A stretch of DNA of 64,000 bases from Prochlorococcus sp. AG-409-P03. Lineage in GTDB: Bacteria; Cyanobacteriota; Cyanobacteriia; PCC-6307; Cyanobiaceae. Position numbers and translations under genes: made by a program. Every line of letters begins with the position of its first letter. Within the stretch, counting starts at the first letter, position 1. A model generated the notes under the pieces. The model saw nothing but the letters and a program-made list of their open reading frames with translations. It was not told the origin of the DNA and ran no database searches. Location of the stretch: contig QCKN01000002.1 in the NCBI GenBank assembly GCA_003215295.1, forward strand, positions 1-64,000, given 5' to 3'. Below are positions 6,749-8,613 of the stretch, in pieces.

Positions 6749-6949
6749 TTAATAGGTTGCGTTACCAATTCCTGTATAGGAACCGTAAAAGAAGATACCC
6801 AGAACAAAAATTACAGCTATTCCACCTGCTGTTGCCACAACCCACAAGGGCAGTGACCCTTCAGTCCAACGACGTTCCCATGAAACTGCTGGACGTCCAT
6901 CTGGCAGGCGGTCAGGTATGCGTCCGTCTGGTCCCTTAAGTTTGCTCAT
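6749..6949 (-). CDS. psbJ: Photosystem II protein J
   Basis: Small one-helix subunit of photosystem II next to cytochrome b559, affecting plastoquinone exchange at the QB side. The 66-residue product has the hydrophilic N-terminal stretch [19 protein letters not shown] and one membrane helix ([19 protein letters not shown]) ending [11 protein letters not shown], the PsbJ signature. It is last in the rubA-ycf48-psbE-F-L-J cluster, directly before the terminator hairpin. Length and sequence are ordinary for marine picocyanobacteria. Confidence 0.96.
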
Positions 6950-6961
6950 GATTCAAAAGGC

Positions 6962-7081
6962 TCAATTAAAGAAATAGCTGGAAAACAAAATCCCCATCAC
7001 AAAAACCAGCAATAGGCCTAAGTAAAGGCTTGTGCGGTTCAGCTCAACCGGCAGTTTGTTGGGGTTCGGGTTGACTTGCAT
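6962..7081 (-). CDS. psbL: Photosystem II reaction centre protein L
   Basis: A 39-residue one-helix photosystem II subunit at the dimer interface, needed for QA function. The translation begins [20 protein letters not shown] and continues as a hydrophobic helix ending FSSYFFN, which is unmistakably PsbL. It sits 12 bases upstream of psbJ and 19 bases downstream of psbF in the same operon. Confidence 0.96.
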
Positions 7082-7100
7082 AGCTAATAAAGGTGAGCAA

Positions 7101-7241
7101 TCAGCGACGTATGAACTGCATAGCAGCTATAGCGCCTAAGAAAAACACCGTGGGAACACCCAGGGCGTGAACGGCAAAAAATCTAACCGTAAAAATCGGA
7201 TAGACGCGTTCTGATTGGAGTGGTGCAGTGGATTGTGTCAT
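7101..7241 (-). CDS. psbF: Cytochrome b559 beta subunit
   Basis: Single-helix subunit that with PsbE holds the b559 heme in photosystem II. The 46-residue product reads [20 protein letters not shown] then a hydrophobic stretch ending AMQFIRR. The heme-ligand His is present (residue 25). The preceding segment is unusual: the family normally has Arg-Trp-Leu-Ala-Val-His, but here Trp and Leu are both Phe. It lies 3 bases after psbE, so the two are surely co-transcribed and co-translated. See the finding on the heme pocket. Confidence 0.95.
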
Positions 7242-7244
7242 GGT

Positions 7245-7493
7245 TTATTTCAAGCGCAGGTCGAGTTGTGACTTGGATTCAAAGCGCTGGCTTACAACAG
7301 GAGCCTTTGTCTCAGAAGCCTGAAAATAGGCATCTGGTCTAGGAGTCCCGAAGGTGTCGTAAGCAAGGCCAGTTGACACAAACAAGAATCCTGAGACGAA
7401 AATCGCCGGAAGGGTCACAATTTGTATAACCCAAAACTTGATGTCAGTGACAATTTCAAAAAACGGGCGTTCCCCGGTTGAGCCGGCAGCCAT
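7245..7493 (-). CDS. psbE: Cytochrome b559 alpha subunit, lacking the usual heme-ligand His
   Basis: The 82-residue product has the PsbE N terminus ([13 protein letters not shown]), one membrane helix, the lumenal [17 protein letters not shown] motif and the C-terminal tail typical of Prochlorococcus. Over the helix start, where the family reads Arg-Tyr-Trp-Val-Ile-His, this protein reads Lys-Phe-Trp-Val-Ile-Gln (19-24). Residue 24, the position of the axial heme ligand, is CAA (bases 7422-7424, minus strand). The frame is intact and the rest of the gene is well conserved, so it is not an obvious pseudogene. First psb gene after ycf48 in the operon. Confidence 0.93.
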
Positions 7494-7536: not shown

Positions 7537-8613
7537 TCAACTTTGTACATCCAATACAGGCATGGTTACAGAGCGTTGTGCATCTACATCTAATCCGGGG
7601 GTTTTGCCTGCCCATCTGAGCAATGTTCCACGCTCTCCTAAGACAAAGCCTTTAGAGCTATCAGTACCATTTGCTTCAGTAAACAAAATTCTTATGAGGT
7701 TGGATGGCTGCCTGTCCCCAACAGGATCTACTTGCCATTTCTGACCACCGTCTTTACTGACCAAAAGGGTTCCATTTCCCCCTGCAGCCCAAATTTGTCC
7801 TGCAGGATCCCATGCCAAATCCAAATAGTTATATCCATTGGTTATAGGAACTATTGGCTTTCTCCAACTTTCTATATCTCCATCCTCATCATTAAAACGA
7901 ATCTCGGCGCCCCTAGAAAGCATCCACAACTTGCCACTAGGTTGGTAACCAATTGTTTGAACTCTCTTACTACTTGCTCTCTGATGGGGCTGCCACGCGT
8001 CTTCATCAGCTTCAAGAGTGGCAAAGAAATTTCCCAAGCTCGAGACACTCACATAACCACCATCCTTGGATCGCCTTAAATCTCTAATCCCTCCTGACGC
8101 CTCGCTGACCTTACCTTCCCAATTAGCACCGCCGTCTTTTGTTGTATACACAGCCCCTGCAGTAGTGGCTAGCTCTGCCGAATCATTCCCCAAAGTGGTT
8201 ATGAGATAAGGGTCACCCGGTAATTTGCTACCTATCAAGAGACGCATCCAATTTTGACCACCGTCATTAGTGTGCATTACCAAGCCTGGCTGCCCAGCAA
8301 TCCATCCTTCCTCCCCAAGGAAGTCAATACTTATTAAGCGGAAGTTTTCTTCACTAGGAATATCAAGATTACGTTCATTCCAAGTATCCCCTCCATCATT
8401 AGTCTCCATGATCATGCGATTGGTGCCAATGAGGAATCCACGGTTTTCGTCAACAAAACCAATATCCAGTGGATTTGCTTCGGTGTTCAGTGAAACTTCA
8501 CTCCAAGGACTCGTAGTAGCCATTGGCAAAGTCGTTGAAACACAGCCACCAAGACCAAGGCCTAAGCAGACCACAAGAGACAAGTTCAAGAATGTAGTAA
8601 AGACGCGATTCAT
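7537..8613 (-). CDS. ycf48: Photosystem II assembly/stability factor Ycf48 (HCF136-like)
   Basis: Lumenal beta-propeller protein that binds newly made D1 during photosystem II assembly and repair. The 358-residue protein starts with a lipoprotein-type signal (hydrophobic [12 protein letters not shown] with lipobox Cys at 24). Repeated blade motifs of the form DGGxxW are visible ([36 protein letters not shown]), as in BNR-type propellers. It lies between rubA and psbE, the conserved cyanobacterial order of genes for early assembly of the D1/D2/b559 module. Confidence 0.95.

Follow-up and report, generated by a model that had tools for sequence, protein, structure and literature searches.

In the window analysed here, a 64,000-nucleotide stretch of the Prochlorococcus sp. 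AG-409-P03 genome (contig QCKN01000002.1, positions 1 to 64,000), the cytochrome b559 alpha gene psbE encodes glutamine at the position of the axial heme-ligand histidine. We consider it somewhat probable that this is a natural b559 variant kept by selection in low-light Prochlorococcus of the LLVII grade, in which the bis-His heme is missing, the site is most likely heme-free (apo), and the structural role of PsbE/PsbF is retained. The gene and its distinguishing codons are listed below; Gln type and His type refer to genomes with either residue at this position.

7245 to 7493, minus strand: psbE, cytochrome b559 alpha homologue of 82 aa with Gln at the axial-ligand position
7422 to 7424, minus strand: Gln-24 codon CAA replacing the heme-ligand His (CAA or CAG in 14/14 Gln-type genomes, CAT in 16/16 His-type genomes)
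7437 to 7439, minus strand: Lys-19 codon replacing the heme-propionate Arg (Gln type: Lys in 13, Asp in 1; Arg in 16/16 His-type genomes)
7434 to 7436, minus strand: Phe-20 codon, Tyr in the His type (fixed difference)
7419 to 7421, minus strand: Ile-25 codon adjoining the ligand site (Ile, Leu or Val against Ala in the His type, fixed difference)
7392 to 7394, minus strand: Ser-34 codon, Ala in the His type (fixed difference)
7449 to 7451, minus strand: Val-15 codon (Val or Leu against Ile in the His type, fixed difference)

PsbE residues 19-24 are K-F-W-V-I-Q, with CAA at 7422-7424 of the minus strand, as a preliminary description of this DNA had read them, and the R-Y-W-V-I-H that it expected elsewhere is what the PsbE sequences of solved structures show when aligned with that of the window. 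In alignment with solved PSII, Gln-24 takes the place of the axial His (numbered 23 in T. elongatus and 22 in Synechocystis), and Lys-19 that of the Arg at a heme propionate; the roles of PsbE Arg residues at the propionates are treated in PMC4709441. Both replacements thus stand as first described, as does the conclusion drawn from them, a b559 with altered ligation or no heme. The luminal domain of PsbE matched PF00284 at 67.2 bits (cut-off 25). The heme segment reached 26.7 bits against PF00283, below the curated cut-off of 30, compared with 53.8 bits for PsbF, and the protein does not match the axial-His pattern R-Y-W-x-I-H. Judged by its sequence, bis-His heme ligation through PsbE residue 24 is impossible, and the protein is best classed as a PsbE homologue whose heme site is altered or absent, the luminal domain and the operon being those of PsbE; it is not a strict cytochrome b559 alpha subunit, because both the heme ligand and a qualifying heme segment are missing. 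The most divergent Gln-type PsbE is that of G001 (AG-363-A16), which has Asp for the heme-propionate Arg (SIDFWVIQ).

The assembly that contains the window is an incomplete draft (1.36 Mb, 47 contigs, 70.6% complete), which leaves some room for a sequencing error, a chimera or a missed intact second psbE. It gave a single psbE match, and a search of the whole assembly at E<=10 found no second copy. PsbE matches were obtained from 347 of 400 family genomes, and the best 30 of these matches comprise 14 with Gln (the window and 13 others) and 16 with His. The Gln-type genomes come from several oceans and several cruises. A scan of GTDB r220 (one genome per species, 84,980 species) for codons of F-W-[V/I]-I-Q-x-V-T-L-P found the motif on 12 contigs, all from Prochlorococcus single cells. 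Going by plate name and PMC6122165, three of the five Gln-type plates were sorted as Prochlorococcus, namely AG-363 (BATS, 100 m), AG-409 (tropical Atlantic, 100 m) and AG-463 (South Pacific, 203 m), and two as bacteria, AG-404 (Station ALOHA, 100 m) and AG-439 (eastern Atlantic, 72 m). In addition, the closed genome G052 (one contig of 2,032,419 bp, searched in full) carries a single psbE, which is of the Gln type; it appears to come from an isolate sequenced at 317x. Base-calling error, chimera and altered assembly are excluded because Gln recurs in 13 other genomes, including this closed one with its only psbE, and we give such explanations a negligible probability. Of the refuting conditions proposed at first, a read error, a second intact psbE and a chimeric assembly, none was borne out.

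The generic His pattern of PsbE was found in 186 of the 386 genomes of a phylum sample, in which the only psbE-like Gln match, on inspection of the matched letters, was that of the window. Gln-type psbE was thus found nowhere else in this cyanobacterial sample, and the GTDB r220 scan, confined to codons of the Gln motif, placed none outside Prochlorococcus single cells. A cyanophage origin was also considered and rejected, as no related viral contig was found. A few oxygenic genomes, for example G201, G450, G541 and G681, matched the His pattern nowhere. In the search of family genomes, G221, G276, G282, G294, G306 and G316 gave two or three PsbE-like matches each, the gene being single-copy elsewhere in the family. 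Gln-type PsbE does not appear to be mentioned in the literature covered by our search, outside which most subscription journals fall.

The closed genome is probably that of the cultured strain MIT1307xe, described in PMC11559063 as an LLVII-grade isolate from 150 m in the North Pacific, with 317x coverage and 39.9% G+C; the G+C content of G052 is 0.399 over its first 2.0 Mb. Two genomes with His-type psbE, G057 (1,855,146 bp) and G031 (1,937,096 bp), appear to be isolates MIT1300xe and MIT1341xe, respectively, which share sampling date and depth with MIT1307xe (PMC11559063). The photophysiology in that source was done on MIT1300xe, of the His type, and not on MIT1307xe, for which the searched literature yielded neither heme content nor PSII activity. 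G052 holds the core PSII genes psbA, B, C, D, H, I, J, K, O, T and others. In bases 1-2,000,000 of this genome (98% of it), probes for the small PSII subunits gave no convincing match to psbU or psbV (cytochrome c550) and no hit to psbX or Psb30, which is weak evidence that these genes are absent. If b559 is indeed apo and psbU and psbV are absent, the PSII of the apparent MIT1307xe would be without any heme.

The genes around psbE were said at first to be normal. The operon, in the order psbE-psbF-psbL-psbJ (6749-7493, minus strand), and ycf48 upstream of it are intact, and their features are these:

7101 to 7241, minus strand: psbF, cytochrome b559 beta, with axial His-25 and Arg-20 kept (PF00283, 53.8 bits)
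7176 to 7181, minus strand: psbF Phe-21 and Phe-22 codons, Trp-Leu in the His type (Phe-Phe in 14/14 Gln-type genomes, Trp-Leu in 14/14 His-type genomes with psbF read)
7155 to 7157, minus strand: psbF Val-29 codon, Ile in the His type (fixed difference)
6962 to 7081, minus strand: psbL, ordinary, no fixed difference between types
6749 to 6949, minus strand: psbJ, ordinary, no fixed difference between types
7537 to 8613, minus strand: ycf48, PSII assembly factor (PF14870, 430.7 bits), no fixed difference between types

The claim of normality stands for psbL, psbJ and ycf48. It does not stand for PsbF, where Trp-Leu has become Phe-Phe and Ile has become Val, and the claim is only partly right because PsbF and D2 change in step with PsbE and a His-bearing sister group exists. 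At window positions 7241-7247, psbF lies in the psbE frame and begins one codon past the psbE stop (TAA ACC ATG).

Fixed differences between the two types, without a single exception among the genomes, are found in three subunits. PsbE has six (residues 15, 19, 20, 24, 25 and 34), three more lie in the conserved part of PsbF (F21, F22 and V29 in the Gln type against W, L and I), and those of both proteins mostly surround the heme pocket. D2 has five (T118, L135, L137, G240 and L279 in MIT1307xe numbering), of which T118 lies two residues past the His that holds the peripheral chlorophyll ChlzD2, a pigment of the same secondary electron path as b559; D2 was not found in G000 and G001, two incomplete genomes of this comparison. 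None of these differences in PsbE, PsbF or D2 supplies a replacement His. D1 was ruled out as a co-changing partner, with no fixed difference, and none was found in PsbL, PsbJ, Ycf48, rubredoxin, NdhC, NdhK, NdhJ, ChlD, MlaF, MlaD or MtnP (presumed identities for the flanking genes other than psb and ycf48, assigned by our own reading of the proteins), nor in RpoB-C1-C2 (3,114 columns, 709 of them variable). CP43 has one, near its C-terminus, and MtnA has one, so that D1, CP43, RNA polymerase and the flanking genes together show two over about 7,200 aligned positions. PsbE was left out of the count so that the partition was not defined by the protein tested; fixed positions then make up 8 of the 90 variable ones in PsbF and D2, compared with 2 of 2,564 in the other proteins (p = 5e-11, a guide only, given the dependence among positions and a set of genomes that varies somewhat from gene to gene).

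Near residue 126, D1 reads G-I-C-G-W-M-G-R-Q (Trp for Tyr) in most low-light genomes of both types and G-I-S-A-Y-M-G-R-Q in G039. In the stromal loop of D2 (residues ~226-238), a stretch of about seven additional residues precedes F-D-P-T-Q in some genomes, again of both types.

It could be that b559 is vestigial here, as the preliminary description had suggested, and that its ligand drifted under relaxed selection. Some laboratory strains tolerate a b559 without heme (PMC9214863 and PMC4709441), and at depth little damage by light is expected. However, mean pN/pS is 0.079 for psbE and 0.009 for psbF in Gln-type genomes, against 0.065 and 0.049 in His-type genomes, and the Gln motif has persisted in genomes that are about 10-45% different in their remaining proteins. 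Gln-type psbE and psbF are under strong purifying selection and therefore neither decaying nor drifting. Relaxed selection is ruled out by these low ratios, and the idea of a vestige in the sense of a decaying one has to be given up. Since, moreover, the Gln never varies and PsbF and D2 have changed in concert with it, we regard drift of the ligand as very unlikely.

Removal of the diagnostic codons still leaves the Gln-type psbEF alleles in one clade (support 97/93), and the psbD tree has the same Gln/His split at 91/95, just under the usual support mark. On these trees, the Gln-type psbE-psbF alleles are of single origin. They probably do not mark an ordinary species clade: a single clade of Gln genomes is rejected by the psbE-flanking genes (AU p = 0.003), one gene with possibly paralogous hits being left out, and nearly rejected by RNA polymerase (AU p = 0.062). 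The likeliest history would be that the allele set arose once and was then exchanged between LLVII lineages; a possible alternative is a deep clade that recombination has blurred. In the apparent MIT1307xe genome psbE and psbD are about 155 kb apart, and because of this distance their joint exchange would suggest co-adaptation. G006 is of the His type with a D2 sister to Gln-type D2, sharing Ala-70 and Ile-62 and lacking the five fixed differences; it may resemble the starting state or a possible intermediate. Whether a co-adapted set of psbE, psbF and psbD alleles, exchanged among deep-ocean Prochlorococcus, abolishes the b559 heme (or its bis-His ligation) while oxygenic photosynthesis continues seems to us evenly poised.

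The PsbE pocket is unlikely to hold the b559 heme because the His is missing, the propionate Arg is gone and bulk has been added beside the ligand site. In the heme-free arrangement that we favour, the PsbE/PsbF pair would still serve structurally, as the nucleus for the D2 module. The side chain of Gln could form a hydrogen bond with the retained PsbF His in place of the iron clasp, and its ability to bond this invariant His across the helix pair would explain why Gln is found rather than a residue without hydrogen-bonding groups. Phe-Phe of PsbF and Ile beside the PsbE Gln would refill and repack the pocket, and the changes in PsbF and D2 would permit PSII to assemble without heme. Such compensating changes are likely because the Gln change alone abolishes photoautotrophic growth in Synechocystis. 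Cells living in the dim light at the bottom of the lit ocean would be able to do without the photoprotection that depends on the heme, because there is little light damage at depth, and iron saving is a possible side benefit.

Two observations go against this reading. Most of the D2 differences are conservative, and PsbF is unusually conserved: RFFAVH, which includes the axial His as well as a propionate-contacting Arg, is invariant in 14/14 Gln-type genomes, so that heme could still be bound there. Chiefly because of this invariance, a heme with PsbF His as its only ligand (five-coordinate and high-spin, with an open site), or with PsbE Gln as a weak sixth ligand in addition, is a serious rival, to which we assign a lesser though real probability. 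The very strong constraint on Gln-type psbF (the pN/pS of 0.009) agrees with it, as does a Synechocystis PsbE Lys mutant that keeps PSII with one ligand displaced (PMC4709441). It has to contend with the removal of heme by replacement of the His alone in T. elongatus (PMC9214863 and PMC4709441), and with the further loss of the propionate Arg and crowding of the site in the natural variant. A heme kept with altered ligation would have a shifted potential and could bind O2, NO or superoxide. Occupation by another cofactor, for example chlorophyll on PsbF His or PsbE Gln, would fit a pocket rebuilt with aromatic residues, and Gln is known to ligate chlorophyll in antenna proteins; this proposal has chemistry only and no precedent at this site, and we think it improbable.

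Most b559 ligand mutants to date are crippled laboratory strains. The variant is nature's own experiment on the purpose of the puzzling b559 heme, and the matched set of PsbF and D2 changes points to the contacts that matter. If the identity of MIT1307xe holds, a Gln-type culture and its His-type sisters MIT1300xe and MIT1341xe would make the function of this heme directly testable.

Compared with the canonical b559 (PsbE/PsbF) of PSII, the variant has the same gene order, length and luminal domain, and it keeps the PsbF His and Arg as well as PsbE Arg-9 (Arg8 in T. elongatus). It differs in PsbE, where the axial His is Gln, the propionate Arg is Lys or Asp and Tyr is Phe, in PsbF, where Trp-Leu is Phe-Phe, and in the matched changes of D2. 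The closest precedent for an apo site is provided by the T. elongatus PsbE mutants H23A and H23M, which have apo-b559 and active PSII at normal levels (Sugiura et al., 2015, cited in PMC9214863 and PMC4709441); the title of that study, known through the same sources, states that holo-b559 speeds recovery from photoinhibition. These mutants likewise lack the PsbE axial ligand with psbE and psbF otherwise intact, their PSII assembles and the cells grow, and the variant strain has apparently been cultured. Unlike the natural, long-standing variant, which involves three subunits, they were made by single engineered substitutions in a thermophile whose D1 is PsbA3, and their apo state is demonstrated, whereas that of Prochlorococcus is inferred. 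The Synechocystis His22 mutants have the His replaced at the equivalent position, including by Gln. In Synechocystis PCC 6803, the His22 to Gln change abolished photoautotrophic growth (Pakrasi et al., 1991; Hung et al., 2007, both as cited in PMC4709441), whereas the natural Gln variant is found in an apparent cultured isolate.
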